Assembly (NCBI GenBank): GCA_946554335.1
Contig: CAMNSA010000001.1
Span: 1-64,000, forward strand
Source: an uncultured Neglectibacter sp.
GTDB lineage: Bacteria; Bacillota; Clostridia; Oscillospirales; Acutalibacteraceae
Direction of reading: 5' to 3'
Length of the DNA: 64,000 nucleotides
Shown one piece after another: positions 3,001 to 23,979 of the stretch. Under the pieces are notes generated by a model that saw only the letters and a program-made list of their open reading frames with translations, was not told where the DNA came from and ran no database searches. The position numbers and the translations under genes are program-made. The first letter of the stretch is position 1. The number at the start of each line of letters is the position of its first letter.

Positions 3001-3471
3001 GAGGGCAAGTGGTATGTTCCCTACATCGCCTGCGCGGTGGAGAACAAGATCATGGACGGCAAGGAAGACGGCAAGATGTATCCCAACAAGACCATTACCC
3101 GTCAGGAAGCCGCCAAGATGATCTATGTTGCCCTGGGCACCACGGATGAGATCAAGACCACCGATAAGGTCAAGGACTTTGACTCTGTACAGAACTGGGC
3201 CAAGATGTATGTGGCCACTCTGGTGGAGAAGAACATCATCAAGGGCTTTGACGATGGTACCTTCAAGCCCAAGAACAACATCACCCGTGCACAGGCCGCG
3301 GTTATGATCAACCGTCTGCTGGGCTTCGATCCTGACGAAGCTGAGCGGGCCAAGATCGCAGAGCTGACCATCGAGGATCAGTTCCCCGATGTGAAGCCCA
3401 GCGGAAACTGGTCTTATGCACACCTGATGTATGCTGCCGGAAAGCTGCCGGATTCCTATTACGCTGGCTAA
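1..3471 (+). CDS. SLH-domain surface protein with Ig-like repeats (5' end outside window)
   Basis: The reading frame is open from the first base, so the true start and probable signal peptide lie upstream. About 1,156 residues are visible. The first ~190 resemble a cohesin-like/carbohydrate-binding beta domain (inference). Then come Ig-like repeats, including one with the common Y-Q-W...I-S-G-A-T...Y-T-L-T pattern (nt 900-1150) and a Y-D-G-type repeat (nt 1950-2160). A Thr/Pro linker (TTPPPGPSG) leads to three SLH domains from about nt 2850 to the end, with the usual F.D...W....I......I..G......F.P...ITRAQ layout. SLH domains bind pyruvylated secondary cell-wall polymer, so the protein is anchored on the outside of the cell. 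The first ~600 nt are visibly richer in A+T than the rest. A strong terminator follows. The ligand is unknown. Confidence 0.85.
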   Translation, partial: AAELKRVEAAAFTKGTTTGYGPDDTFYVAMDLDTTNLADAYAGATGIMGMQVFFKIPEDTFELVKAKASDPNIVIMNPALTGKVANGDDVGYEDTAGLEDYYGSCTASVDINTTNGKSYIVVTLQISSGNYLIPVKHTGWEVLFPVKVKNTAAPGSKSIEFTTEAVGAGGTEIQYVTNENGQTPTKAGEVTLDKIETAALSLKVTGPSIELKGTPKVLNTTGQKVTVTPGGGLTPASDAEWLICESGQTTGVTATAVAKGDDYELTFDASTLKTDGATEYVVVYKKDTTTLKTEGKFKVLAALTGTAKITGTAKVGETLTAALDGGPAGATLKYQWTAGGKSISGATSSTYTLTAAEAGKTISVVISATGYEGTKTAPATAAVADGDAPSISGVTIDTAEYGADITAAIKAKFTSDASSTFTFSAVNNSILKVDSNKVTVGKGAISGGNNTVNVSIKRPGYAAASTTATLTAKTKKQLTLAASGTAGSGAVYNLPTPTGMVSGDTAPTVTWTKGTETGCTAVLSGTTITATLTDLAIPGTVALTAAITSDDYQLNNTSYTLNVSAAAMTSITLDAPTGFSVSPDAVVQGSTGNTITITPAEDYAIDSVTGTGVTWTSGNTFTLDTTAGQASVTVKITGHAAKTITATVPSKHYDGTNKVEGTITFADKGGNPVNATYTDATFADANVGTGKAVTINGIVWPNDGNTYTYVATGDIQATTPSAATAAATAVSTTAPTADAVKEAIKAAVITFTNEDGKTFTKTVEDLLSGSADLDAAIAAAINNVEAFKGPMEAGPEVKFEASADVAVESALAVNATQNGTIVPENTVAGAASFGFADPAPAGLTIDATTGKIAVAEDADTAAPIAAVVEIKGADGTALATINMAVTVSAGTYGYAIENLAENATGAVDLGNIVSMLDVSGDANITALPATIELSLNVTKSTTPPPGPSGSFKPYMDGYEDGTLLPGRSVTRAQFAKMLVIATGKFDETKTYEKPDYPDVIEGKWYVPYIACAVENKIMDGKEDGKMYPNKTITRQEAAKMIYVALGTTDEIKTTDKVKDFDSVQNWAKMYVATLVEKNIIKGFDDGTFKPKNNITRAQAAVMINRLLGFDPDEAERAKIAELTIEDQFPDVKPSGNWSYAHLMYAAGKLPDSYYAG

Positions 3472-7892: not shown

Positions 7893-8714
7893 TTATAAAA
7901 AAAGTTCCTTGTGCATCCGGCTGTAATGGAACAGGTATTGCTGGGCAAGGCCGGCGTATTCTCCGAATTCCGCCGGTGTGCGGTCGGGAAGAAGCTTTGT
8001 CATCACCCGCTTCATCCACACATCCATGGGGAAGCAGGAGGTTTTATGGAACCCGTAAAGCAGGGTACATTCCGCAACCTTGGGCCCCACGCCGGAGATC
8101 TTTTGCAGCTCCTGCCGTCCGAAGTCCGCCTCCTCCCGGATGATGGCCTGAAAATCGACCTCTCCCGAGACCACTTTCCGGGCGGCGTCCAGCAGATATT
8201 TGGCCCGGAAGCCCGCCCGCAGGGGGGAAAGCTGTTCCAGCGACAGAGAGGCAAGGCGCTCCGGACCGGGAAAAGCGTGAAGCTCGCTTCCCGGGATGGA
8301 AGAGCCGAATTCTCCGCAGAGGCGCTCAATGATCCCTTTGATGCGGGGAATATGATTGTTTTGAGAGATCAGGAAGGAGCAAAGGGCCTCCCAGGGCTCT
8401 TGACAAAGGAGGCGGATGCCCGGGGCAAAGGAGCAGGCGTCCTTCAGGAGCGGGTCTATAGAGGCGAGGCTTTCCCGGAGCCTGGGGTAGTCCGTACTCA
8501 GGTCAAAATAGGGGGTCCAAATAGTTTGAAACTCCTCCTTCGTACAGAAGAGGAGAAGCTTGTCCCCCTCTCTGCGAAGCCGCAGCGCTTTCCCGAAGGC
8601 CGCGCCCTCCCACAGCGAGCCATCCTCTTCTATGCAGCGCCAGCGAAAGGCCTGCCCGCAGTCCAGCGTTTCCGGCAGGTCAAAGCAGGCGGGAATGGAA
8701 ACGACCTCACTCAT
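7893..8714 (-). CDS. ogg: 8-oxoguanine DNA glycosylase (HhH-GPD family, OGG1-like)
   Basis: 273 residues. The N-terminal domain starts with the OGG signature F-D-L-P-E-T-L-D-C-G-Q-A-F-R-W. The HhH-GPD core ends in ISGVGPKVAECTLLYGF, whose Lys aligns with catalytic Lys249 of OGG1, and CFPMDVWMKRV, whose Asp aligns with the conserved Asp268. It should excise 8-oxoguanine opposite C and nick the strand by beta-elimination. The ATG overlaps the stop of the upstream gene by 4 nt (ATGA at 8711-8714), so the two are translationally coupled. A terminator follows. Oxidised-base repair in what looks like an anaerobe fits occasional oxygen exposure. Confidence 0.9.
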   Translation of the reverse strand: MSEVVSIPACFDLPETLDCGQAFRWRCIEEDGSLWEGAAFGKALRLRREGDKLLLFCTKEEFQTIWTPYFDLSTDYPRLRESLASIDPLLKDACSFAPGIRLLCQEPWEALCSFLISQNNHIPRIKGIIERLCGEFGSSIPGSELHAFPGPERLASLSLEQLSPLRAGFRAKYLLDAARKVVSGEVDFQAIIREEADFGRQELQKISGVGPKVAECTLLYGFHKTSCFPMDVWMKRVMTKLLPDRTPAEFGEYAGLAQQYLFHYSRMHKELFL

Positions 8715-9418
8715 CTGTTTTTTTCATCGGCCTTCTGCCGGTCCTGAGGCTCCCGGGAGGTGAGAAAACGGATGGAGCGCTCAATGGCGTCCTTGGAGTT
8801 TCCCCAGTCGCTGCCTGTGCTGCGGTAGTCGAACATTCGGCAGAAGTGGGTCACATCCTCGTTTAAAGCGGCCAAATATTTTCCCGCCAGAGCAGTCGTG
8901 TCCTCGTAAAAGAGAGAAACGCTTTTTTTCGGCAGGCCTTTCGCCGCTTCCAGGACCTGCAGGTAATGGGGGAAGCAGATGTATTCCTGCTCCTGATAGA
9001 GCGTTCGGAATTCCGGATCCTTCTGCCAAAGGTCGACCATCGTCTCCAGCAGATGGGCGGTGTTCTTTTCCAGATTTTCACAGATAAAGCAGCTGTCCTT
9101 CCGCCTTGCGAGGGTGGGAAGGACTTTTTTGAGGGGCGCCGCCTTTTTCGGAAAGGCCTCGCTTCTGATCTCGGCCAGCAGGCTTTCCAGGATCAGCGCC
9201 ACGGAAAGCCTGCTGCCCCGGGCGAGGATCTGGTTGAAGTGCTCCTCGCAAAAGCCCAGGCGGTTGGTTTCCTCCCGCACATCCGGCTCCATCATGGCTG
9301 CGCCGGTGATATAGGTGGCCATTCTGTCCTCCAGCATATCCCGCATCCGGCAGAAGGGGCAGCCGTCTTTGGGAAGGAAAACATCATGGATCGGAATAGA
9401 GCACAAATCTTCGCGCAT
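8711..9418 (-). CDS. DUF6062-like cysteine-rich protein of unknown function
   Basis: 235 residues, no signal peptide or membrane segment. It has paired Cys/His motifs: C-P-F-C near the start, G-F-C-E-E-H-F, then C-F-I-C and C-F-P-H in the second half. This suggests two similar halves, each with a CxxC + CxxH site that could bind zinc or a cluster. I recognise the overall pattern as the DUF6062 family of Clostridia, from memory. I start at ATG 9418 because GGAGGT lies 7 nt upstream on the minus strand; the frame could open 17 codons earlier without a ribosome site. It is the first gene of an operon with ogg (4-nt overlap), so a role with nucleic acids or oxidative damage is possible but unproven. 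Confidence 0.75.
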   Translation of the reverse strand: MREDLCSIPIHDVFLPKDGCPFCRMRDMLEDRMATYITGAAMMEPDVREETNRLGFCEEHFNQILARGSRLSVALILESLLAEIRSEAFPKKAAPLKKVLPTLARRKDSCFICENLEKNTAHLLETMVDLWQKDPEFRTLYQEQEYICFPHYLQVLEAAKGLPKKSVSLFYEDTTALAGKYLAALNEDVTHFCRMFDYRSTGSDWGNSKDAIERSIRFLTSREPQDRQKADEKNR

Positions 9419-10080
9419 GTCAAGACCTCCAAAATGTATGATTCCAAAAAAAGAAGAATAAATATTCATTCAAATTTTCAGGAAAAAACCGAAATGTTTC
9501 ACGGATAGGAACGGGAGATTTCTGTGAAAAGTCAGCCTTTTGGAACAGTATAGCACAAAACAGGGAAAAAAAACAGGGGGCCTTTCGTTTGAAACCTGAA
9601 AAAAGACTTCGGATGTTTCAAATGAGTAAAATTCATGGAGCGGGGTGCTTAAAAGGAAATGGTGAAATATTTTGACTTGACAATATTTCCACAAAATATG
9701 GAACAGAAAAAAGGAATAACACAATGTATTGATTAATTTTCCAGAAAAGGGAAATGGCAAGTTTAATGCTTGATTCGAATAAAAGGAAAAGGCGTTTACA
9801 TAAGAACTTTTCTGTTTTCTCCTTTTGAGATTTTGAAAACCGCATAGGACAAGGAGTTTTTCACATTTTCCACCGAGTTTTCCACATTCCAAAAGAAATG
9901 GGTAAGGGTTCTTATGTCAACTCGCAGAATCGAAGGAAAACTACCCATTCAAAAAAGGATATTTTTTCATAAAACGTATAAAAATTTATTTTTCAAAATG
10001 GTGGAGAAAAGGTCTCAAAAAGGGAGAGAAAGGAGAATTCAGGGAAACAGCGGCCTTTCCAGTATTTTTATTTGAGATTT
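9419..10080. other. AT-rich non-coding stretch with DnaA-box-like 9-mers
   Basis: No credible gene. Composition drops sharply in GC relative to both sides. Three tandem 9-mers fit or nearly fit the relaxed DnaA-box consensus TTWTNCACA: TTTTTCACA (9857-9865), TTTTCCACC (9866-9874, one mismatch) and TTTTCCACA (9878-9886); a fourth, ATTTCCACA, is at 9685-9693. A possible minus-strand -10 for the DUF6062 operon (TATACT) is at 9547-9552, with a poor -35. Confidence 0.5.
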
Positions 10081-10647: not shown

Positions 10648-10669
10648 AATGGGTAAAGGAGTTTTAGTT

Positions 10670-11455
10670 TTGAAAAATACAAGGGAAGAGCCCTGGGGGA
10701 CAGATCTGGTCGCCGGGAGGAACGCGGTGGCAGAAGCCCTGAAGGCAGGAAGACCCATAGACAGCCTTTTTGTACAGAGAGGGGAAAAGAGCGGCGCGCT
10801 TCTCTCCCTCATCGCCAAGGCCAAGGCGGCGGGCGTCACCATCAAGGAGGCGGACGGGAGAAAGCTGGACAGAATGTGCAACGGCGCGGTGCATCAGGGT
10901 GTTGTGGCTGTGGCGGCCGTGAAAGAATACGCCTCTCTGGACGCGGTGTTCGATCTGGCGGATAAACGGGGGGAGCCCCTGTTTCTGGTGATCTGTGACG
11001 AACTGGAGGACCCGCACAACCTGGGGGCGGTGATCCGCACGGCGGAGTGCGCGGGAGCCCACGGGGTGGTGATCCCCAAGCGGCGCAGCGCGGGCCTTAC
11101 CTACGCGGTGGGAAAAGCCTCGGCCGGAGCAGTGGAGCATCTTCCTGTGGTGCGGGCGGACAACCTCGTGCGGCTGCTGGACCAGCTGAAGGAACGGGGC
11201 GTCTGGGTGTACGCGGCCGATATGGACGGCTCTCCCTGGTGCGAGACGGAGCTTACAGGGCCTGTGGCGCTGGTGATCGGCTCCGAGGGAAACGGCCTGG
11301 GACGGCTCGTGAAGGAAAAATGTGATTTTGTGCTTTCCCTTCCCGTAAAAGGGAAGGTGAATTCCCTGAACGCCTCTGTGGCGGCAGGGATCCTCTGCTA
11401 TGAGGTAGCCCGTCAGAGAAGCGGGATCCAGGCGGTGAATCCCCCGGTGGCCTGA
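10670..11455 (+). CDS. rlmB: 23S rRNA 2'-O-ribose methyltransferase, TrmH/SpoU family (RlmB-like)
   Basis: 261 residues. The N-terminal substrate-binding domain (VAGRNAVAEAL...) is followed by a SPOUT methyltransferase core with the three family motifs: DPHNLGAVIRTAE, LVIGSEGNGL and SLNASVAAGIL. These form the knotted SAM site. RlmB methylates G2251 of 23S rRNA; the paralogous TrmH branch is the main alternative. I take TTG at 10670 as start, because AAAGGAG ends 8 nt before it and would otherwise lie within the coding region begun by ATG 10649. The long structured leader upstream, with its own TATAAT promoter, may influence expression (inference). Confidence 0.88.
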   Translation: MKNTREEPWGTDLVAGRNAVAEALKAGRPIDSLFVQRGEKSGALLSLIAKAKAAGVTIKEADGRKLDRMCNGAVHQGVVAVAAVKEYASLDAVFDLADKRGEPLFLVICDELEDPHNLGAVIRTAECAGAHGVVIPKRRSAGLTYAVGKASAGAVEHLPVVRADNLVRLLDQLKERGVWVYAADMDGSPWCETELTGPVALVIGSEGNGLGRLVKEKCDFVLSLPVKGKVNSLNASVAAGILCYEVARQRSGIQAVNPPVA

Positions 11456-11583
11456 ACGCAGGCGGAGCGGGAGAAAGCCGTGAGGTGATAGAGCAGGCCT
11501 TTGTTTTTTGATGGATCGCCGGATGGATCCGGGCAGCTTTTGCGGATCTATGTTACAAATTCAAGCAGGAATTGAGGATTGTT

Positions 11584-14565
11584 ATGGCAGACGAAAACAA
11601 AAAAGAATTCTCCGTGGAGGATATTCTTGAGGAGCAGCGCGAGGCACGGGATACGACGCCTTCCGCTGAAGACAGGTCTGCAAAGAAGACGCAGGCGCCC
11701 CCTGAGGAGCAGGAGGTTTCAGAGGACACGGCAGATCTGAACGCTTTTGCCACGGGCAATATTGCGGTCCCCGGCTACGGTCGCTCCAAGGGAGAGCCTG
11801 TGGAAGAGCGTTCGGAGGGCGGCCAGAAGGGGAAAAAGAAGAAAAAGAAAAGCGGACTTTTCGGCCGGAAAAAGCGCAGTCCTGACTTCGACGAAGAAGA
11901 GGACATGTACTACGGGATCCAGCTCAAGCCCATTGACGAATACCGCAAGGGCTTTGACCCCGCCACAGGAGAGTTCTCCATGGAGGGGGACAGCTTCAAA
12001 GCCCTTTTTGACGATTCCAAAAAAGCCATCGACGACGAGGTGGAGGCGAATTTCCAGAAGCTTCAGAAGGAGCGCCGCCGCCGGGTGGCTCAGGCGGTGC
12101 AGACCGCCGGAATGGACGAGGAGCAGATCGCGGACGAGTTCGGTATCGTAGCCCCCATGCCGGTGACGGCCTTTGCCGCGGACCCTTATGCGAAGCAGCA
12201 CGGGATCGAGGTAGAGGGCGGGGAATCGGGCGAGCAGATGTCTGAGATCCAGCGGGCCATGCTGGAGACCTCCACGGACAAGACCATGGAGATCAAGCTC
12301 AATGTGCTCAATGACACCATCGAGCTGCAGCGGGTCAAGGATGTGCCCGCGGTGAGCGAGGAATCGGTGAATAAGATCCTGGATTCCGTCGGCTCTCATC
12401 AGGAACAGGAGGCTTTGGAGCAGGCAGAGGAAGAGCCGAAGGAAGCAGTGCAGGAGGAGCAGCCCGTCTCCCGGGAGGAGACAGGCTCCGAAAAGGAGGC
12501 TGTTTCCCAGGAGGAGATTGCCCCGGCACAGGAGCCCTCTGGAGAGGAGCGGGTGAAAACCGTTCAGGGCGAGCAGGAAAAGGCCGCCCCACAGAGACCC
12601 CTGGGAGAGATCCCTCAGGTAGCCAGTATTTACGAGTATCGCAGCCGCGGGATCCCCACCCATATGATCAATGTGGAGGTTCTGCAAAGCGCCCTGCTTA
12701 CAGAGTCTGAGGCGATTTTGGAAAAATCCCGCCGGGAGGAGGGAGCCCAGGCGCCCCGCAGACGCGTCCAGAACCAGAAGCTGGAGGAGCAGCGGGAAGA
12801 GCCTTTGGAGGAGATCTCCCAGGAGGACATCGACGATTACACGGGCCCGGAGGACGCCAAGTCCATTTCTCGGGAGCTCCGGGGAAATATGCACGAGCTC
12901 ACCCTTCGGATGCTGATCACCGGGGTGTGCACCGTGATCCTCACCATTGTCAACATGATCTTCGGCGGCACCTTTGCCGCTACGCCCATTGGGGAGCTGG
13001 GCTCGGCCCCCATCGTTTATCTGATCCTGACCCTGGTGTTTTTCGGGGTGTCGGCGGGCGTCTGTTACCGCACCATCGGGAACGGGCTCAGGGCCCTGCT
13101 TTCCTTTAACGCCAATTCCGACAGCGCTGTGGCGGTAGCCGCTGCTGCGGTGCTGGTGCAGACGGTGAGCGCCCTGTTCTTCACCGGAGATCTGGGCGAG
13201 GGAAAGGTACATCTGTACGCGGTGGTGCTGTGCGCGCTGCTCTTTATCAACGCGGCGGGAAAACAGACCATGCTCCGCCGGATCCACAGCAATTTCCGCT
13301 TCGTCACCTCGCGGGAGCAGAAGTACGCTGTGCGCACCTATGACGATTACAATACCGCCCTCAAGATGACCAAGGATTGCGTGGCGGAAAAGCCGCTGAT
13401 CGCCTATCAGTGCAAGACCGGGTTCTTAAAGCGGTTTTTGGAGCTTTCCTATAATCCGGATCCTGCTGAGACAGCCTCCCAGTTCCTTGCGCCCTTCGGC
13501 CTGATCGCTTCGCTGGTGCTGTGCATTGTCTGCCTGCTGGTGACGAGAAGCGTCTCCACGGCGCTGAGCGCCTTTGCGGCGGCCGCCTGTACCTGTGTGG
13601 CGGCAGGCAATATGCTGGCGATCAACCTTCCCGTAAGCCGTCTGTGCAAAACGGCCCGTCGGGCCGGGGCTATGGTCTCCGGTTTTGGAGGCATCACAGA
13701 GCTGGGAAATGTGAACGCGGTCATGGTGGATGCAGAAGAGCTGTTCCCCTTAGGAACGGTAGTCCTCAACGGGATCAAGACCTTCGGCAACAAGACGGGC
13801 GCAGAGGAGGCGATCATCGCATCCTCCGCCATGATGAAGGAGGTTGGAGGACCTCTTGCCGGTGTGTTTGAGCAGGTGATCAGTGAAAACGAGGAAAGTC
13901 TGCCCCAGGTGGAGAGCATTTCCTTTGAAGAGGGAAATGGCATTACCGGACGGGTGGACTCAAAGCGGATCTATATCGGCAATCGGGGGCTTTTGGTCAA
14001 TCACCGCATCGAGCCGCCTGCCCGGGAAGAGGAAAACCAGTATGCCTCCGGCAATCAGCAGGTGGTGTATCTGGCGGTGGACGACCGGGTGTGCGCCATG
14101 CTGATCCTCACCTATACGGCGGACCGCAGGAAGAAGAATGAATTGCAGCGCCTGGAGGACAACGGCATCAGCGTGGTGGTGCGCACCACTGATGTGAATG
14201 TCACACGGCAGCTGATCTCCCGCCTGTTCGGGATCGACAGCGCTTCGGTAGGAATTTTAGACAGCCAGCTGGGAGAGCTTTCCAGAGGGCTGATGGAGGA
14301 GGAGATCCCCCGGGCGGACGCCAAGGTCGCCACCAAGGGCCGGGCGGAGTCTCTGATGAGCGTGGTCTGCGCCTGCGTGGGCGAGCTGCGCAGCGCGGGA
14401 CTGATTGTCGCCCTGCAAAACGCCGCGGTGATCCTGGGATTTGTGCTGGTGGCTTTCCTCTCCTGCTTCGGCGGCATGAAGCAGCTGACCTCCTTTGTGC
14501 TGTTTGTGTTCGAGCTATTCTGGCTTTTGGTGATCCTTTTGATCCCCAAGCTGAGAAAACGATAG
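11584..14565 (+). CDS. Degenerate P-type ATPase-like membrane protein with long acidic cytoplasmic N-terminus
   Basis: 993 residues. Residues 1-~435 are hydrophilic, Glu-rich and low-complexity, with a Lys-rich patch near 80-100 (KGKKKKKKSG). Eight hydrophobic segments follow in a 4+2+2 arrangement (about 440-560, 637-680, 938-990), the layout of P1B ATPases. Between segments 6 and 7 is an N-domain-like stretch, GNGITGRVDSKRIYIGN, which matches heavy-metal ATPases. The catalytic signatures are gone: V-D-A-E-E-L-F stands where D-K-T-G-T belongs, R-T-T-D replaces T-G-D, and the G-D-G-x-N-D hinge is absent; the CPC of segment 6 reads C-T-C. Transport by phosphorylation is therefore unlikely; sensing or scaffolding is possible. 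Start ATG 11584 follows a weak GAGG. A terminator lies 6 nt after the stop. Family resemblance is by eye. Confidence 0.75.
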   Translation: MADENKKEFSVEDILEEQREARDTTPSAEDRSAKKTQAPPEEQEVSEDTADLNAFATGNIAVPGYGRSKGEPVEERSEGGQKGKKKKKKSGLFGRKKRSPDFDEEEDMYYGIQLKPIDEYRKGFDPATGEFSMEGDSFKALFDDSKKAIDDEVEANFQKLQKERRRRVAQAVQTAGMDEEQIADEFGIVAPMPVTAFAADPYAKQHGIEVEGGESGEQMSEIQRAMLETSTDKTMEIKLNVLNDTIELQRVKDVPAVSEESVNKILDSVGSHQEQEALEQAEEEPKEAVQEEQPVSREETGSEKEAVSQEEIAPAQEPSGEERVKTVQGEQEKAAPQRPLGEIPQVASIYEYRSRGIPTHMINVEVLQSALLTESEAILEKSRREEGAQAPRRRVQNQKLEEQREEPLEEISQEDIDDYTGPEDAKSISRELRGNMHELTLRMLITGVCTVILTIVNMIFGGTFAATPIGELGSAPIVYLILTLVFFGVSAGVCYRTIGNGLRALLSFNANSDSAVAVAAAAVLVQTVSALFFTGDLGEGKVHLYAVVLCALLFINAAGKQTMLRRIHSNFRFVTSREQKYAVRTYDDYNTALKMTKDCVAEKPLIAYQCKTGFLKRFLELSYNPDPAETASQFLAPFGLIASLVLCIVCLLVTRSVSTALSAFAAAACTCVAAGNMLAINLPVSRLCKTARRAGAMVSGFGGITELGNVNAVMVDAEELFPLGTVVLNGIKTFGNKTGAEEAIIASSAMMKEVGGPLAGVFEQVISENEESLPQVESISFEEGNGITGRVDSKRIYIGNRGLLVNHRIEPPAREEENQYASGNQQVVYLAVDDRVCAMLILTYTADRRKKNELQRLEDNGISVVVRTTDVNVTRQLISRLFGIDSASVGILDSQLGELSRGLMEEEIPRADAKVATKGRAESLMSVVCACVGELRSAGLIVALQNAAVILGFVLVAFLSCFGGMKQLTSFVLFVFELFWLLVILLIPKLRKR

Positions 14566-15757: not shown

Positions 15758-15855
15758 GAAATAGATTCCACAAGCTGGACCCTCATGCGTGGGAAACTAA
15801 GCGGCCGGAGTTGGCAAAAGCCATGGACCAGGCCCATAAAAGGAGTGTTTCCAAA

Positions 15856-17928
15856 ATGAATCAATACCAGGCAAAAAATATCCTGAACCTTGCGGTGGCG
15901 GGCCACGGCGGTTCCGGAAAAACCTCCCTGACGGAAGCGATGCTGTTTCTTTCCGGAATGTCTGACCGCAGGGGCAAAGTAAATGACGGAAACACGGTAA
16001 GCGACTATGACCCGGAGGAGATCCGCAGGAAGACCTCCATCTCCGCGGCGGTCGCACCCTTTGAGTGGAAAAATAAGAAGATCAATCTCCTGGACGCCCC
16101 CGGCCTGTTCGACTTTGAGGGCGGAGCCTGCGAGGCGATGCGCGCGGCGGATACCGTGCTCATTGTGATCTCGGGAAAGAACGGCGTGGCGGTAGGCACG
16201 GAGAAGGCCTTTGCCGCCGCTGAAAAGAGAGGGTTGGCGAAGATCTTCTTCGTCAACGGACTGTGTGACGAAAGCGCCCGTTTCTACCGGGTATTTGAGG
16301 ATCTGAAGGCGCAGTTCGGCCCTTCGGTGTGCCCGGTGGTGGTGCCCTATATCCAGGACGGCGAGGCCAATGTCTATATCAACCTTTTGGAGTACAAGGC
16401 CTACGATTATTCGGAAGGAAAGCCCACTCAGGTGCCTATGCCTGACATGGGAGACCGGCTGGAGGGTTTGCGCACGGCCATCTACGAGGCTGTGGCGGAA
16501 ACGGACGACGCGCTGTTTGAAAAGTATTTCGCCGGCGAGGAATTCACGCCGGAAGAGGTCATCGTGGGAGTCAGCAAGGGCGTGAAGTCCGGCACGATCA
16601 CTCCGGTGTTCTGCGGCGACGCCATGCTCATGCGAGGCATGGAGCAGTTTATGGACGGGCTTGCGTGGCTGGCGCCTTCCGCTCAGGAAAAGGCGGAGGA
16701 GCTGGGCGTAGATGTAGACGGGAACCCGGTGGAGCTTGCGGTAAATGAGGAAGGCGCTCCGGCGGCTATCGTGTTCAAGACCGTGGCGGATCCCTTCATC
16801 GGAAAGCTTTCCTACTTAAAGGTGATCTCCGGCAAGGTGTCGGCGGATTCTCAGCTTCTGAACATGCGCACGGGCAATATGGAGCGTATCGGAAAGACTG
16901 TGATGATCTGCGGCAAAAAGCAGGAGGATGTGAAGTATATCGGCGCCGGAGACATTGGGGCAGTGCCGAAGCTGACTGCCACCAACACGGGAGACACCCT
17001 TTGCGCCCCTGCCAGGAAGGTGCTGCTGGATGGAGTGGAGTACCCCACTCCCACCCTTTCCATGGCCATCGTCCCCCAGAAGAAGGGAGAAGAGGATAAG
17101 ATTGCCCAGGGCATGATGCGTCTTTCCGAAGAGGATCCCACCCTCAGCTTCTCCACCAATACGGAGACGCATGAAATGATTTTAAGCGGCTTGGGTGAAC
17201 AGCATCTGGATGTGGCCGTCTCCAAGCTGAAGGCAAAATTCGGCGTGGAGGTCACCCTGAAAAAGCCCAAGGTCGCCTACCGGGAGACCATTCGCAAGAC
17301 TGTACAGGTTCAGGGACGCCACAAGAAGCAGACCGGCGGCCACGGCCAGTTCGGCGATGTGTGGATCGAGTTCTCCCCCTGCGACAGCGAGGGGCTGGAA
17401 TTCGGGGAGCGCGTGGTAGGCGGAGCGGTGCCCAAGGGCTTCTTCCCCGCGGTGGAAAAGGGCCTGAGAGAATGTATCCTCAAGGGGCCGCTGGCCGGTT
17501 ATCCGGTGGTAGGGCTTTCCGCCGTGCTGTATGACGGCTCCTATCATCCGGTGGATTCCTCTGAAATGTCCTTTAAGATGGCGGCTGCGCTGGCCTATAA
17601 GGCGGGAATGCCCCAGGCAAACCCGGTGCTGCTGGAGCCTATCGGTCATTTGAAGGCCAGCGTTCCGGACGCCAACATGGGCGATATCATGGGAGAAGTC
17701 AACAAGCGCCGGGGCCGTGTGCTGGGCATGGATCCCGCCGGAGAGGGCCGACAGACGGTGGACGCCGAGGTGCCCATGGCCGAGATGCACGATTTCTGCA
17801 CCTATGTCCGTCAGGTGACCCAGGGCAGAGGAAGCTTTACCTTTGAGTTTGAACGGTATGAGGAAGCTCCCGCCAATGTGGCTCAGAAAGTGATCGAAGA
17901 AGCCAAGGCGGAAGGCGCAATAGAATAA
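15856..17928 (+). CDS. Elongation factor G-like GTPase (FusA2-type paralogue)
   Basis: 690 residues with all EF-G domains. G1 is GHGGSGKTSL and G3 is DAPGLFDF. The G4 position, normally N-K-M-D, reads N-G-L-C (FFVNGLCDES), so guanine recognition may be altered. Domain IV keeps GGHGQFGDVWIEF. The GHxGxGKT loop and this domain IV mark the EF-G2-like branch rather than the canonical translocase, which is usually next to tufA and rpsL/G. Role unknown: ribosome recycling or a stress-related function are candidates. ATG 15856 is chosen because AAAAGGAGTG lies 8 nt upstream; the frame opens 15 codons earlier. It has its own promoter and a perfect terminator. Confidence 0.85.
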   Translation: MNQYQAKNILNLAVAGHGGSGKTSLTEAMLFLSGMSDRRGKVNDGNTVSDYDPEEIRRKTSISAAVAPFEWKNKKINLLDAPGLFDFEGGACEAMRAADTVLIVISGKNGVAVGTEKAFAAAEKRGLAKIFFVNGLCDESARFYRVFEDLKAQFGPSVCPVVVPYIQDGEANVYINLLEYKAYDYSEGKPTQVPMPDMGDRLEGLRTAIYEAVAETDDALFEKYFAGEEFTPEEVIVGVSKGVKSGTITPVFCGDAMLMRGMEQFMDGLAWLAPSAQEKAEELGVDVDGNPVELAVNEEGAPAAIVFKTVADPFIGKLSYLKVISGKVSADSQLLNMRTGNMERIGKTVMICGKKQEDVKYIGAGDIGAVPKLTATNTGDTLCAPARKVLLDGVEYPTPTLSMAIVPQKKGEEDKIAQGMMRLSEEDPTLSFSTNTETHEMILSGLGEQHLDVAVSKLKAKFGVEVTLKKPKVAYRETIRKTVQVQGRHKKQTGGHGQFGDVWIEFSPCDSEGLEFGERVVGGAVPKGFFPAVEKGLRECILKGPLAGYPVVGLSAVLYDGSYHPVDSSEMSFKMAAALAYKAGMPQANPVLLEPIGHLKASVPDANMGDIMGEVNKRRGRVLGMDPAGEGRQTVDAEVPMAEMHDFCTYVRQVTQGRGSFTFEFERYEEAPANVAQKVIEEAKAEGAIE

Positions 17929-17995: not shown

Positions 17996-18472
17996 TCACG
18001 GCTCTTCCAATTTGCGAATGGGGAAAAGCAGGTAACACTGACCGTTTTCTTTGGGCAGATAGAGCTCCTGCACTGCTCCAACGAGGGGGAGGTTTCTTTC
18101 CTTCAAAAGGGAAATGCCCTCCTGAAAGCTGTGTTCTCCTTCCGCCTTCACACAGAGATATTCAAAGCCGGGAATTTTCCACAGGATCCAGCCCTCCACC
18201 TTGGGACAGTCCTCTGTCACCTCTGTCCCGGCCAGATACAACCCCTGGGAGAAGCTTTCTTCCCAGGGCAGGAAGGAGAGGGAGAAGTCGGACATAGCGC
18301 CCCAAACGGCGCTGACGGACCCGTCCGGGTCCCGCTTCACAAGGGACGCGATCTGTTCAAAGGCTCCGTTTGCCTCCTCCCACAGCTTTTGTACGAAATT
18401 TTCCCCGTCCCGGGAGGAGCCAAGCTTCCCCAGAACGAAAAAAGCCTTTTTTGTCAATCGCTTTACTTCCAC
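17996..18472 (-). CDS. GyrI-like/effector-binding small-molecule-binding protein
   Basis: 158 residues, no DNA-binding or membrane segment. The C-terminal part (...GWILWKIPGFEYLCVKAEG...) and overall layout resemble the GyrI-like effector-binding fold that also forms the C-terminal half of the AraC regulator two genes upstream. It overlaps the transglutaminase-like gene by 10 nt and is the last gene of that operon. Such free-standing domains bind hydrophobic ligands. The assignment rests on resemblance and context, not a catalytic motif. Confidence 0.6.
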   Translation of the reverse strand: MEVKRLTKKAFFVLGKLGSSRDGENFVQKLWEEANGAFEQIASLVKRDPDGSVSAVWGAMSDFSLSFLPWEESFSQGLYLAGTEVTEDCPKVEGWILWKIPGFEYLCVKAEGEHSFQEGISLLKERNLPLVGAVQELYLPKENGQCYLLFPIRKLEEP

Positions 18473-19419
18473 AAAAATCCTTCCTTTCCTCCTGAAAGAT
18501 GGTCAGAGTCGCCTACGAGAGGGCTGTTTAAGATCCGGAATTTCCGCTGGGTATCCCAGAGCGTTTGCAGGGCGGAAAAGTTCTCGTCCGGGGAGAGCAT
18601 CAGCTCAGCTAAACCGTCCAGCTCCTCAAGGTCCCGTTCTGTCAGAGAATCCAGTTTCCCGTCGATATAGGCGGGCAAAAAGAGATAGGAGATATCATCG
18701 TTCATCAGGGCGTGAAAATCATAAAAGAGATAGCGGATCACGGCGCGCAGGGAGCAGGTCCCCAGGCCGTCTGCATAGAGAAATTCTTTGCCGTCCGTTT
18801 TGCCCCGGCGGATGGCAAGCCACGACCCCGCAGCCCAGTGGAACTCACTCTCCTTCAGGTCGTATTGGTCGATCCCCATCAGTTCCTCCCGGTAGAGGCC
18901 GTCCGCGTCTATGGTTCGCCACCGGTTTTCCCGGCTGTCCCACACCTGATTGATCCAGTGGTCCATGCTGACTCCCGGCTTAAAGTAGGGCGCGAAACCG
19001 GCCCGGCTGCGGCAGGGGATCCCCTTTGCCTTATAGATGGCGGACACCAGCACCGAAACATACCGGCAGGTGAGCACCAGCTTGTGCTCCACTTTCCTGT
19101 CCGGGAGAAAGCCTCTGGAATCCAGCCGAAGCAGCTCTGCGGTCATGGCGGGAGCCGTCAGAAAGATATCATCCTCACAGCGCATCCGGTGCCAGGGGTA
19201 TTCTCTCATATCTCCATAGCGCAGGTCATCGTTTGCGCCCAAGTTTCCCTCATGCAGGGTGACCCGATGGAGAATCTGATGGGAGAGCAGATTCCCCAGC
19301 TCTCTGGGGTCGTCCGGAAGGCTTTGATAAAAATCGCGGTAGGGCCCCGCGCAGGTGTAAGGCCCCGCGGTGAGAAAATGCGCTTTTGCTTTAGGCGTCA
19401 GGAACTCGCTGGACTTCAA
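18463..19419 (-). CDS. Transglutaminase-like protein
   Basis: 318 residues, without signal peptide. The central region has the transglutaminase-core Cys-His-Asp order: LVLTCRYVSVLVSAIYKAKG for the Cys, S-M-D-H-W-I-N-Q-V for the His and R-T-I-D-A-D for the Asp. The Cys sits in T-C-R-Y rather than the common G-x-C-W/R. Bacterial relatives are mostly cysteine peptidases or amidases. It is the middle gene of a three-gene operon: its start overlaps the stop of the AraC-type regulator by 4 nt, and its end overlaps the GyrI-like gene by 10 nt. A ligand detected by the regulator may therefore be its substrate or inducer. Confidence 0.8.
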   Translation of the reverse strand: MKSSEFLTPKAKAHFLTAGPYTCAGPYRDFYQSLPDDPRELGNLLSHQILHRVTLHEGNLGANDDLRYGDMREYPWHRMRCEDDIFLTAPAMTAELLRLDSRGFLPDRKVEHKLVLTCRYVSVLVSAIYKAKGIPCRSRAGFAPYFKPGVSMDHWINQVWDSRENRWRTIDADGLYREELMGIDQYDLKESEFHWAAGSWLAIRRGKTDGKEFLYADGLGTCSLRAVIRYLFYDFHALMNDDISYLFLPAYIDGKLDSLTERDLEELDGLAELMLSPDENFSALQTLWDTQRKFRILNSPLVGDSDHLSGGKEGFLWK

Positions 19420-20291: not shown

Positions 20292-20397
20292 GATGATCCT
20301 CCTCTCTGAGGAAGCGGTTGTCTGATTACTAGGATACCAGAAATGGGCGGACTTGTCCTGTCAATTTCTGCGCGATTTTGTCTTTTTTTCAAAAAAG

Positions 20398-20430
20398 AAG
20401 ACTCTGGGCTTTTTCAAACCAGAGTTCTGT
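20398..20430. other. Hairpin in the AraC / beta-galactosidase divergent spacer
   Basis: GACTCTGG and CCAGAGTT pair across an 11-nt loop. The 210-nt spacer between divergent starts also has TTTTTTTCAAAAAAGA (about 20384). No consensus promoter is clear in either direction. Confidence 0.45.
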
Positions 20431-20501
20431 TGTAAAATGGAGCGTAGAAGCTTATGGGACTGCTTGCCGGATAAAACATTTTTGAAAGGGGTCGTTTTCA
20501 G

Positions 20502-22526
20502 ATGAAAATTCAACTTCCCGAAGGGATCCGCCTGCTTCACGGCGGCGACTATAACCCGGACCAATGGCTTGACCGGCCGGATATCCTCGAAAAGGATATT
20601 GAGCTGATGAAGAAAGCCCATATCAACTGCGTGTCGGTGGGGATCTTTTCCTGGGCCCGGCTGGAACCGGAGGAGGGGGTCTATGATCTTGACTGGCTGG
20701 AGAAGATCATCGATAACCTCTATGAAAACGGCATTTATACCGTGCTGGCCACGCCCTCCGGGGCAAAGCCGGTGTGGATGAGTGAAAAGTATGAGGAGAT
20801 CCGGCGGGTGTCCTCTCAGATGGTGCGAGATCAGACAGGCGGCCGGCATAACCACTGCTATACCTCTCCCTACTATCGGGAAAAGGTGAGGGCCATTAAC
20901 GGCCAGCTTGCCAGGCGCTTGGGAAAGCATCCCGGTGTGCTTTTGTGGCATCTTTCCAACGAGTACGGCGGCGTCTGCTGGTGCCCCCGATGCCAGAGAG
21001 AATTTCAGCAGTGGCTCAGGAAAAAGTACGGCGCCATTGAAGAGCTTAACCTCCAATGGTGGACCGCCTTCTGGAGCCATACCTATCAAAGCTTTGAGCA
21101 GATCCACGCTCCTGTGGACAACGGAGAGCGGGACACTCACGGCCTTGTGCTGGACTGGAAGCGCTTTACCACAGATCAGGTAGTGGATTTCATGGAGGAA
21201 GAGATTCGGGCAGTGCGGGAATTTGCTCCGCAGCTTCCGGTGACCACCAATCTGATGTACTACTTTACCCAGTATAACTACTTTAAATTTAAGGATGCGT
21301 TGGATGTGATCTCCTGGGATTCCTATCCCCAGTGGGGCCCGGGGGACAACAGCCGCCAGGCCTGCGAGGTGGCGCTGTGGCATGATGTGATGCGCTCCTT
21401 GAAGAGACAGCCCTTCCTGCTGATGGAAAGCACCCCCAGCACCACCAACTGGATGGCAGCTTCCCGCCTAAAGCGGCCGGGGATGCACCTGGCGGCCAGT
21501 ATGCAGGCGGTGGCTCACGGGTCGGACTCCGTACAGTATTTCCAGTTCCGCAAGGGCAGAGGCTCTTCCGAAAAGTTCCACGGCGCAGTGGTGGACCATG
21601 TGGGCGAGCCTGTGACCAGAGAATTCCGGGATGTGGAAAGGCTGGGAGAATACCTGGAAAAGATCGGGGAGGTGCAGGGCAGCAAGACAGAAGCGAAGGC
21701 GGCCCTGGTGCTGGACATGGAGAACCTTTGGGCCATTGAGGAGGAACGGGGCCCGAGAAATTGCGGGATGCACTATCTGGAGACCGTCCAAGACCACTAT
21801 CGGGCTTTTTGGAAGCGGGGGATCAGCCTGGATGTGATCGACGAGGAGTGCGAGCTTTCCGGCTACAAGCTGGTGGTGGCGCCCATGCTTTATCTGCTGC
21901 GGGCCGGGTTTCAGCAAAAGCTCAGGGATTTTGTGGAGCAGGGAGGCGTCTTAATGGGCACTTACCATACAGGGCTTGTGAACGAAAACGACCTGTGCTA
22001 TTTGGGAGGCTGGCCCGGAGAAGGGCTTAGTGAGGTATTCGGCGTGTGGCATGAGACCACGGACGGCCTTTGGGACGGGGAGAAAAACAGCCTCGTTTTA
22101 GAAAACGGAAAGGCCTATGAGCTCAGCGAGCTGTGCGCCCTGATCCACCTGAAGGGGGCGAAGGCCCTGGGCTATTACGGCAGCGACTTTTATGAAGGAG
22201 AGCCCGCCTTGAGCGTGAATTCCTTTGGAAAGGGAAAGGCTTACTATCTGGCTGCCAGAGCGGGGGAGCCCTTTTATGAGGACTTCTATGAGAAGCTTTC
22301 CCGGGAATTGAAGCTGCCCCGGGCGCTGGAGGAGATCCCTCAAGGAGTGGAGGCCTGTGAGCGCAGGTCGGACAAAGAGCGTTATCTCTTTTTACAGAAC
22401 TTTTCCGGAGAGGAAAAGCAGATCCGGCTGCCGTTGGGGTATTTCGACCTCGTTTCCAAAGAGGAGAAGAAAGAGGTGACACTTTCGGGCTATGACGCCG
22501 TGGTTCTGCGCACAACTGCCAAATAA
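20502..22526 (+). CDS. Beta-galactosidase, glycoside hydrolase family 42
   Basis: 674 residues, typical GH42 length. The N-terminus HGGDYNPDQW and the TIM barrel are clear. Acid/base Glu154 is in L-S-N-E-Y-G-G and nucleophile Glu309 in L-L-M-E-S-T-P-S. A structural zinc site is suggested by C-W-C-P-R-C just after Glu154. A trimerisation domain and a small C-terminal beta domain complete the enzyme. There is no signal peptide, so it works in the cytoplasm on imported galactosides. The ribosome site is AAAGGGG. It stands alone, divergent from an AraC regulator that may sense its substrate, and no sugar transporter is nearby. Confidence 0.95.
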   Translation: MKIQLPEGIRLLHGGDYNPDQWLDRPDILEKDIELMKKAHINCVSVGIFSWARLEPEEGVYDLDWLEKIIDNLYENGIYTVLATPSGAKPVWMSEKYEEIRRVSSQMVRDQTGGRHNHCYTSPYYREKVRAINGQLARRLGKHPGVLLWHLSNEYGGVCWCPRCQREFQQWLRKKYGAIEELNLQWWTAFWSHTYQSFEQIHAPVDNGERDTHGLVLDWKRFTTDQVVDFMEEEIRAVREFAPQLPVTTNLMYYFTQYNYFKFKDALDVISWDSYPQWGPGDNSRQACEVALWHDVMRSLKRQPFLLMESTPSTTNWMAASRLKRPGMHLAASMQAVAHGSDSVQYFQFRKGRGSSEKFHGAVVDHVGEPVTREFRDVERLGEYLEKIGEVQGSKTEAKAALVLDMENLWAIEEERGPRNCGMHYLETVQDHYRAFWKRGISLDVIDEECELSGYKLVVAPMLYLLRAGFQQKLRDFVEQGGVLMGTYHTGLVNENDLCYLGGWPGEGLSEVFGVWHETTDGLWDGEKNSLVLENGKAYELSELCALIHLKGAKALGYYGSDFYEGEPALSVNSFGKGKAYYLAARAGEPFYEDFYEKLSRELKLPRALEEIPQGVEACERRSDKERYLFLQNFSGEEKQIRLPLGYFDLVSKEEKKEVTLSGYDAVVLRTTAK

Positions 22527-22794
22527 TCTTTCGGAACAGTGGGAAAAATTATCTGCTTTGGGAAAAACGAAAAAAAGGCAGGGTTTTCTGTAGAATTGCG
22601 CGTGATTTTGTGTTAATATTTTCTTAACAAAGATGAGGCTCTCCGGCTTTGCCGGAGGAAACAACAGAACAGGACTCGCCCGTTTTGTACGGCTCTTTTT
22701 TGGGGAGGCCATCCGGCGGTTCTCCAGCGGAGAGAAGATCTGGAAAGACGGGAGGGGGATCCTCGGCTTGCAGCAGAAAGGATGACGAAACACT
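22527..22794. other. Spacer before PRPP synthase with one hairpin
   Basis: 268 nt without a gene. CTCCGGCtttGCCGGAG (22641-22657) is a perfect hairpin. A/T-rich runs lie at 22540-22625. I find no promoter with good spacing. Confidence 0.4.
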
Positions 22795-23979
22795 ATGGAA
22801 CAGTCGGCTCAAGTCTTTTTCAATCCCGGGAACCGCGTCGCGCCCCTGGGTATTGTAGCTCTGGAAGGTGCCTCTGAGCTTGCTCAGAAGATCGAGGAAC
22901 ACTTGCTTCGCTGGGCAAAGGAAGCCAATATGGATGTGGACACCTTTCAGATCCCCAATTCCTGCCCTCGCTTCTCCTCCGGAGATGGCAAGGGAATGCT
23001 CAATGATACGGTACGAGGCTACGATCTGTTTTTCATTGTGGATGTGGGAAACTACAGCTGCACCTATAACTATTTCGGGAAAGAAAATCACATGTCTCCT
23101 GACGACCATTTCCAGGATCTGAAGCGGCTGATCCAGGCGGCCAGCGGGAAGGCCCACCGCGTCAATGTGATCATGCCTTTGCTGTACGGAGGCAGACAGC
23201 ACCGCAGAAGCTACCGGGAGTCGTTGGACTGCGCCTTTGCTTTGCAGGAGCTGCAGCATATGGGCGTTTCCAATGTGGTGACCTTTGACGCCCATGATCC
23301 CAGAGTGATGAACGCTGTTCCCATTATGGGCTTTGACAATCTGATGCCCAGCTACCAGGTGCTGAAAAAGATGTTTAGAAGCTTTCAGGATATCTCTACA
23401 GACCGGGAGGATTTTATGATCGTCAGCCCGGATGAGGGCGCCTTGAACCGGAATATGTACTATGCGTCTGTCCTGGGGGTAGAGCTTGGCATGTTCTACA
23501 AGCGCCGGGACTATTCCCGCGTGGTGGACGGCCGCAACCCCATCGTCGCCCATGAATATCTGGGCTCGGATGTGGCGGGCAAGGACGTATTCATTTCCGA
23601 CGACATCATCTCCTCCGGAGAGTCCATGCTGGATATCGCCTACAACCTGAAGGAGAGAAAGGCAAAGCGGATCTTTGCCTACGCCACCTATGCCATCTTC
23701 ACCAACGGTCTGGGCGCTTTCGACAAGGCCTATCAGGACGGCTATATCAACGGCGTGTTCGGCTCTAACCTCACCTACCGCACAGAAGAGCTGAAGGCCC
23801 GCCCCTGGTTCTATGAGGTGGATGTGTCCAAGTATATTGCCTATTTTATCGCGGCCCTCAATCACGATATGTCTATCAGCTCTCTCATTGACCCCCACGA
23901 GAAGATCAAGGCGCTTCTGGAGAAGAGAAAGGCGGAAAGAAGCCAGTATGAGGACGTACAGCTGAGCTTTGAGAAATAA
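22795..23979 (+). CDS. prs: Ribose-phosphate pyrophosphokinase (PRPP synthase)
   Basis: 394 residues, longer than the ~315 of classical Prs and typical of the second, clostridial-type form. Signature residues are present: V-T-F-D-A-H-D-P-R (nt ~23280) and the PRPP loop D-D-I-I-S-S-G-E-S-M (nt ~23600), close to the type I phosphoribosyltransferase motif. R-R-x-Y-R-E-S near nt 23205 matches the ATP/ribose-5-phosphate loop. The product, PRPP, feeds purine, pyrimidine, NAD, His and Trp synthesis; nadE lies elsewhere in this window. AAAGG lies rather far (~14 nt) from the ATG. A strong terminator follows. Confidence 0.92.
   Translation: MEQSAQVFFNPGNRVAPLGIVALEGASELAQKIEEHLLRWAKEANMDVDTFQIPNSCPRFSSGDGKGMLNDTVRGYDLFFIVDVGNYSCTYNYFGKENHMSPDDHFQDLKRLIQAASGKAHRVNVIMPLLYGGRQHRRSYRESLDCAFALQELQHMGVSNVVTFDAHDPRVMNAVPIMGFDNLMPSYQVLKKMFRSFQDISTDREDFMIVSPDEGALNRNMYYASVLGVELGMFYKRRDYSRVVDGRNPIVAHEYLGSDVAGKDVFISDDIISSGESMLDIAYNLKERKAKRIFAYATYAIFTNGLGAFDKAYQDGYINGVFGSNLTYRTEELKARPWFYEVDVSKYIAYFIAALNHDMSISSLIDPHEKIKALLEKRKAERSQYEDVQLSFEK

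Follow-up and report, generated by a model that had tools for sequence, protein, structure and literature searches.

The window analysed here is a 64,000-nucleotide (nt) stretch of an uncultured Neglectibacter sp. (contig CAMNSA010000001.1, positions 1 to 64,000), and its subject is a single gene at 11584..14565 on the forward strand, which encodes a protein of 993 amino acids (aa) with the predicted fold of a P1B-type ATPase and without the motifs of the phosphorylation cycle. The open reading frame starts at the ATG at 11584, with GAGG at 11574-11577 and an in-frame TTG at 11572 ahead of it, and its stop codon ends at 14565. The gene and the parts of its membrane core are as follows (all on the + strand).

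11584..14565, +, pseudo-P1B-type ATPase gene, 993 aa (homology, core model and Foldseek)
12883..13305, +, first four transmembrane helices, residues 434-574 (core model, hydropathy)
13306..13461, +, shrunken A-domain remnant, residues 575-626 (anchor distance, family versus pumps)
13462..13662, +, transmembrane helices 5 and 6, residues 627-693, metal-site CPC lost (core model, column counts)
13729..13743, +, former DKTGT site, D716-A-E-E-L (columns over 120 members)
13789..14118, +, N-domain, residues 736-845, with near-invariant G786 and G799 and the SEHP His lost (core model, columns)
14185..14199, +, former TGD site, now T-T-D-V-N, residues 868-872; family consensus T-x-D-P-N (column counts)
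14344..14556, +, transmembrane helices 7 and 8, residues 921-991 (hydropathy, core model)

Homology and predicted fold

No Pfam-A family matched the 993-aa protein at expect values (E) up to 1, and an Rfam scan of the window returned no match. Among NCBIfam models, TIGR01525 (P1B) matched at E 4.4e-14 (52.3 bits, short of the curated cut-off of 346.25) and the CopA model at E 1.1e-13, likewise below cut-off, while a sequence search of the PDB found CopA (3rfu) at E 2.2e-13 over residues 628-949. These matches place the protein as a homologue of P1B ATPases, well beyond chance. In its own genome the gene is the only match to its protein; separate, genuine P1B pump genes are also present there, the best of which scores 645.9 bits with TIGR01525 and lies on a different contig.

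The AlphaFold2 model of residues 433-993 (the core model), built from a 42-row alignment, reached a mean predicted local distance difference test (pLDDT) score of 91.9 and a predicted template-modelling (pTM) score of 0.86; a full-length model from a 22-row alignment was poorer (pLDDT 61.3, pTM 0.53). Helices of the core model fall at 434-466, 475-506, 514-529 and 546-574, then at 627-654 and 657-693, and finally at 921-961 and 970-991, and hydropathy concurs with this 4+2+2 order of membrane segments, as does the first-pass annotation, which had noticed eight hydrophobic segments so arranged from the letters alone. The N-domain core that it had named is present and is inserted in the P-domain, the arrangement by which the P-type fold is recognized. 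Its proposed comparison with CopA and ZntA also bore out the resemblance: Foldseek against the PDB placed P1B ATPases on top (CopA first; 4bbj at E 6.2e-17, 3rfu, 7r0g, ATP7B and ZntA, all with probability 1.00), followed by KdpB and other P-type ATPases. Among the 50 matches listed all were P-type ATPases, the one at rank 37 being titled merely 'membrane transport protein'. The query template-modelling scores of the P1B rows were moderate (0.37-0.61), as expected because the domains are movable and the A-domain has shrunk.

Catalytic motifs across the family

The family set consists of the best frame from each of 131 loci, which gave 120 distinct sequences, some of them partial and 27 of them of the window's own genus; the loci were brought in by the family profile itself, and frames with DKTGT were not excluded. 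DKTGT was found at the catalytic site of 0 of the 120 members, and the string DKTG occurs in two, both times within the tail. The aligned residues of the window protein are D716-A-E-E-L: the Asp is kept and KTGT is gone. Across the family, the phospho-Asp column is D in 65 of 120 and the Lys column is Lys in none, the Gly position is D/E in 108 and is followed by F (104) and P (101), and D stands at 716 or 717 in 104 members. The TGD site, T-T-D (868-870) in the window protein, has T/S in 100 of 120 and its middle Gly replaced, with the Asp (D870) present in 116 of 118 and followed by P in 80 and by N (N872) in 98 of 118. GDGxND is missing from the window protein and from all 120 members, and no single position between residues 884 and 931 is acidic in >52% of members, which leaves no conserved acidic column to stand in for this hinge. 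The first-pass annotation had called DKTGT replaced, TGD changed to T-T-D and GDGxND missing, and had looked to orthologues for a shared loss of DKTGT; all of this held, with the refinement that the Asp of DKTGT survives in the window protein.

Further losses extend beyond that annotation, namely the M4 CPC, the SEHP His and much of the A-domain. The metal-site CPC is absent from the window protein, the columns of its two Cys hold that residue in 3 and 1 of the 120 members, and no CPx-like string was found at the M4 place in members where M4 could be placed. The His of SEHP is present in 0 of 120 (the window protein reads G-G-P), and the N-domain glycines are nearly invariant (G786 in 118 of 119, G799 in 119 of 119); in ATP7B, the N-domain His and glycines contact ATP. 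TGE is absent from the A-domain loop of the window protein. Distances between anchors in the family, compared with three pumps, are close within the P/N core: 79 residues versus 79 from M3 to the former phospho-Asp, 69 versus 67-70 from there to G786, and 84 versus 85-86 on to the TGD Asp. Two segments are shorter: the A-domain loop, with a median of 92 residues versus 157 in two pumps (the anchor was unaligned in the third), and the stretch after TGD, at 122 residues versus 153 and 158 in two pumps and 270 in the third, which has a longer C-terminus.

The family is thus like P1B ATPases (CopA, ZntA, ATP7B) in its 4+2+2 helices, its P- and N-domain folds, the spacing of its P/N core, its two N-domain glycines and its TGD Asp, and unlike them in lacking DKTGT, GDGxND, CPC and the SEHP His, in having ~65 fewer residues in the A-domain loop and in carrying, in most members, a long acidic N-terminal tail. 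It combines a homologous fold with a shared, conserved loss of catalytic residues, as a pseudoenzyme does. Identity as an active P1B pump fits the fold and is contradicted by the sequence: DKTGT, GDGxND, a full A-domain with TGE, CPC and a score above the TIGR01525 cut-off are all wanting. Alignments, model and distribution together place the protein as a descendant or sister group of the P1B metal pumps, which presumably does not turn over ATP.

Distribution, acidic tail and neighbourhood

With the window protein as single query, a match was found in 56 of 60 relatives at E 1e-10. The family profile, run against 395 genomes of the order (completeness filter 90, threshold E 1e-45, best three or fewer candidates scored per genome), found full-length relatives in 386, one per genome except for two in G538. 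This order we take to be GTDB Oscillospirales; named homologues include Neglectibacter timonensis (71% in the best segment), Acutalibacter and Oscillospiraceae. Among the nine genomes below threshold, G609 still gives a match over nearly the whole length, though a diverged one (1.5e-38), and the other eight have pump-type matches only. G374 and G428 share a genus, in which a true loss of the family is possible, and G033 (92% completeness) has no match whatsoever. In searches of the class and the phylum, which scored the best four or fewer candidates per genome and so, like the order search, bound copy number and absence, all 14 genomes of the order in the class sample matched across almost the whole model, at 5.2e-96 or better, and in the phylum sample 4 of 4 matched at E 1e-45. 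Outside the order the family was found in 0 of 278 genomes of the class sample (the best match, 5.8e-40, spans positions 196-476 only, the ordinary-pump pattern) and in 0 of 295 of the phylum sample at E 1e-45. The two samples overlap (at least seven of the 20 listed phylum-sample outsiders are also in the class sample) and are not additive.

An unrooted tree of 24 members and 36 pumps, in which long branches meet and of which the inner order and root were left unused, splits members from pumps by one 100/100 branch, with much longer branches among the members. Pairwise ratios of nonsynonymous to synonymous differences per site (pN/pS) for five near relatives, some with saturated synonymous divergence, ran from 0.18 to 0.39 in the core and from 0.30 to 0.44 in the tail and were lowest around residues 567-628 (0.08-0.22), values that indicate purifying selection on the core. 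Because the family is present throughout the order, it was presumably fixed before the order diversified. The pseudo-pump gene of one genome (G058; loci L029 and L068) has one in-frame TGA, for which sequencing error, decay or recoding are alike possible; in two genomes of a single genus, G053 and G357, SpoIIIAE likewise has one TGA each. The family was also considered as a sporulation gene, and this was rejected: all 20 of the 395 genomes without a SpoIIIAE match, the only such genomes, keep the family, and all nine genomes below the family threshold have SpoIIIAE.

Ahead of the core lie the tail with two short elements and, upstream of the gene, its usual neighbour:

11584..12888, +, acidic cytoplasmic tail, residues 1-435, predicted mostly disordered with some helices (charge, pLDDT)
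11608..11634, +, N-terminal short linear motif F-S-V-E-D-I-L-E-E, residues 9-17, overlapping the predicted helix 12-23
11827..11874, +, Lys patch KGKKKKKKSGLFGRKK, residues 82-97 (22-row alignment)
10649..11455, +, rlmB, 23S ribosomal RNA (rRNA) G2251 2'-O-methyltransferase, conserved upstream neighbour (TIGR00186, E 6.6e-73, above cut-off)

The tail, noted in the first-pass annotation as long, acidic and Lys-patched, is indeed ~435 residues long, with a net charge of about -40 and a Lys run at K84-K89. Most of residues 1-416 have a pLDDT <50 in the full-length model, in which helices at 12-23, 146-174 and 365-387 score better than others such as 259-279. Among the 110 members whose frame is clear of the locus edge, at least 100 residues precede the core in 107 (median 357.5) and the tail is net-negative in 101. 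Within the Lys patch, K86-K88, F93 and G94 are at least 90% conserved in the 22-row alignment, 20 rows of which are of the window's genus. A motif like FSLEDILxE was found within the first 90 residues of 56 of the 118 tails of at least 60 residues, versus 0.15% of shuffled tails, with 57 hits in the first 90 residues (10,600 aa) versus 2 in the remaining tail (33,054 aa). In the window's own genome the sole match to the degenerate pattern is the pseudo-pump gene, and the motif was accordingly rejected as a general tag shared with other proteins. Across 40 relatives the pattern gave 34 matches in 25 genomes; of ten inspected, two belonged to the pseudo-pump family and the remaining eight fell within different proteins, judged by eye to be SecA, CBS-domain proteins and others.

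Upstream linkage was counted in 80 fetched loci with at least 700 nt upstream, which are not a random sample: rlmB lies immediately upstream on the same strand in 77, at a median gap of 21 nt. In the three exceptions, the gene is broken and rlmB lies further up (L029), the frame is broken (L021) or rlmB has no match (L065). Because the spacing is short, co-expression with rlmB is likely; a consensus scan of the gap found no promoter, which is weak evidence. The tie between RlmB and the pseudo-pump is one of gene order alone. Downstream, a conserved partner was sought and not found: of ten downstream genes, nine fell into nine different family kinds and one had no family.

Several other genes of the neighbourhood were recorded. 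An EF-G-like GTPase (PRK12740-type, above cut-off; 15811-17928, +) lies two genes downstream of the pseudo-pump, and such a gene follows it directly in 8 of the 33 other loci listed. The YacP/Rae1 NYN domain, which the pseudo-pump was considered to have possibly replaced behind rlmB, has no match in the window's own genome and one match in each of 25 of 60 relatives, mostly inside frames of ~870-990 residues and not as a small protein (loci L219-L222); no inference was drawn from this distribution. A DUF6062 protein (8711-9469, -) adjoins an OGG-type DNA glycosylase (7893-8714), and the same pair stands ahead of rlmB in the near relatives L031 and L038. The 1153-residue protein at 10-3471 (+) has S-layer homology domains and no further Pfam match at E 1e-5. 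On the - strand, the frames at 18463-19419, 20361-21383 and 22624-23898 (318, 340 and 424 residues) matched nothing in Pfam at E 1e-5; all three overlap opposite-strand frames, and some may not be genes.

Competing explanations and proposed role

No bacterial pseudo-P-type ATPase of this kind was among the literature matches listed, in which subscription journals are thinly covered. Pseudo-kinases and pseudo-phosphatases are well known. Prokaryotic FUPA families were reportedly defined by Saier's group, and the pseudo-pump family may overlap with one of them. The sole other catalytically dead P-type ATPase candidate found in the literature searched, and a disputed one, is eukaryotic TMEM94/ERMA, a protein of the endoplasmic reticulum whose status as a P-type ATPase is contested. 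Likened by description, it shares with the family a P-type architecture, a degenerate phosphorylation loop and the lack of GDGVND and TGES, and differs in its ten membrane helices, its A-like domain of >120 residues, its near-canonical DKQGI and a structure closest to SPCA according to its authors. According to one group it has no ATPase activity, carries no nucleotide at the site proposed for it and lacks TGES (PMC12134183); according to another, the Asp in DKQGI is essential and GDGVND is changed to GSSANL (PMC13322241).

The explanation that we favour, with moderate confidence, is that the family is a pseudo-P-type ATPase of ancient origin which now serves as a scaffold or sensor at the membrane. 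Its pseudo-enzyme part, which the first-pass annotation had also proposed, is well supported by the motif counts and the predicted fold; for the function, which that annotation had put as sensing, scaffolding or regulation, a scaffold or sensor is most likely. As a descendant or sister group of the P1B pumps, the family no longer has the phosphorylation loop or the Mg-binding hinge, and the dephosphorylation (A) domain is mostly gone, as are the metal site and the His that stacks on ATP. The eight-helix core would serve as membrane anchor; the P/N headpiece, with its two near-invariant glycines and T-x-D-P-N loop, would bind a ligand or partner and change shape without a phosphorylation cycle; and the long acidic tail, predicted disordered, would extend into the cytoplasm, where its N-terminal docking motif may recruit a soluble partner.

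Several observations weigh against parts of this scheme. One member begins just ~20 residues before the core; the motif pattern is missing from 62 of the 118 tails, some of them cut by the locus edge, and of the 56 tails with the motif, 24 belong to the genus of the window and are not independent. Six of 120 members still carry a TGE string between residues 575 and 626, in what remains of the A-domain, and in four of these it stands at roughly one position. Asn occupies position 800 in just 52 of 119 members, and with the SEHP His gone as well, nucleotide binding is itself doubtful. Furthermore, 95 of 120 members combine D at 716/717 with D/E at 719, which could mean residual chemistry, and the M4 Pro is kept in 76 of 120, such that a membrane path could still bind something. 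The acidic pair and the Pro may leave room for residual chemistry or passive transport.

One alternative, which we consider unlikely, takes the protein as a channel, facilitated carrier or scramblase that moves an ion or lipid on a P-type membrane core without a Post-Albers cycle. All eight helices are kept with high model confidence, and the M4 Pro is a helix breaker; yet the window protein has Ala at this position, the metal-site Cys columns are nearly devoid of Cys, and no conserved transporter partner was seen among the ten downstream genes.

More doubtful is the idea that the protein acts as a regulatory subunit on one of the cell's genuine P1B pumps. Pseudo-enzymes often regulate active relatives, and P1B pumps above cut-off are present in 389 of the 395 genomes of the order, a ubiquity because of which this version is hard to test. 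However, the gene is linked to rlmB and not to a pump, and the six genomes that, judged on their best E-values, have no pump above cut-off (G350, G402, G438, G573, G625 and G669) all carry the family, although incomplete assemblies or the scoring of the best three or fewer candidates may explain these six.

A non-canonical active pump or a phosphotransferase of the haloacid dehalogenase (HAD) type, with the shifted Asp (D716/D717 and D/E719) in place of DKTGT, is slightly less probable still. The P-domain of P-type ATPases has the HAD fold, and the family resembles HAD phosphatases and phosphotransferases in having D-x-D/E at the motif I place in 47 of 120 members and T/S at the motif II place in 100 of 120; D at 716/717 (104 of 120), D/E at 719 (108 of 120) and the TGD Asp (116 of 118) point the same way, as does the claim, in the ERMA report, that the DKQGI Asp is needed for Mg uptake (PMC13322241). 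Yet unlike those enzymes the family has no conserved acidic residues in the motif IV region, Lys and GDGxND are found in 0 of 120 members with no conserved acidic replacement, two pumps have ~30-35 residues more after TGD than the family does, and the shift of the Asp register is tolerated in the family, unlike in an active site. Local decay, which would have refuted the first-pass annotation, and an artefact of assembly have a negligible chance: the lost motifs and nothing beyond them point to either, and both were excluded by the presence in 386 of 395 genomes, the purifying selection on the core (pN/pS 0.18-0.39) and the mostly intact frames.

Reuse as a scaffold or sensor has a wider form, which we put forward tentatively and at somewhat less than an even chance: in this order of gut-dominant bacteria, the family would be an order-specific core gene, a pump turned into a non-catalytic receptor or scaffold before the order diversified, whose disordered tail recruits a conserved cytoplasmic partner and whose gene is expressed together with that of an rRNA methyltransferase. 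The protein is in the membrane, nearly every sampled genome of the order encodes it and no Pfam family covers it, so it may have a core cell function or serve as an order marker. The whole order keeps a pump-like protein in which the motifs of the phosphorylation cycle are gone and the glycines, the TGD Asp, the eight helices and the rlmB linkage persist; such order-wide retention suggests that a dead pump was probably given another job, and what a P-type fold does without ATP chemistry becomes a directly testable question.

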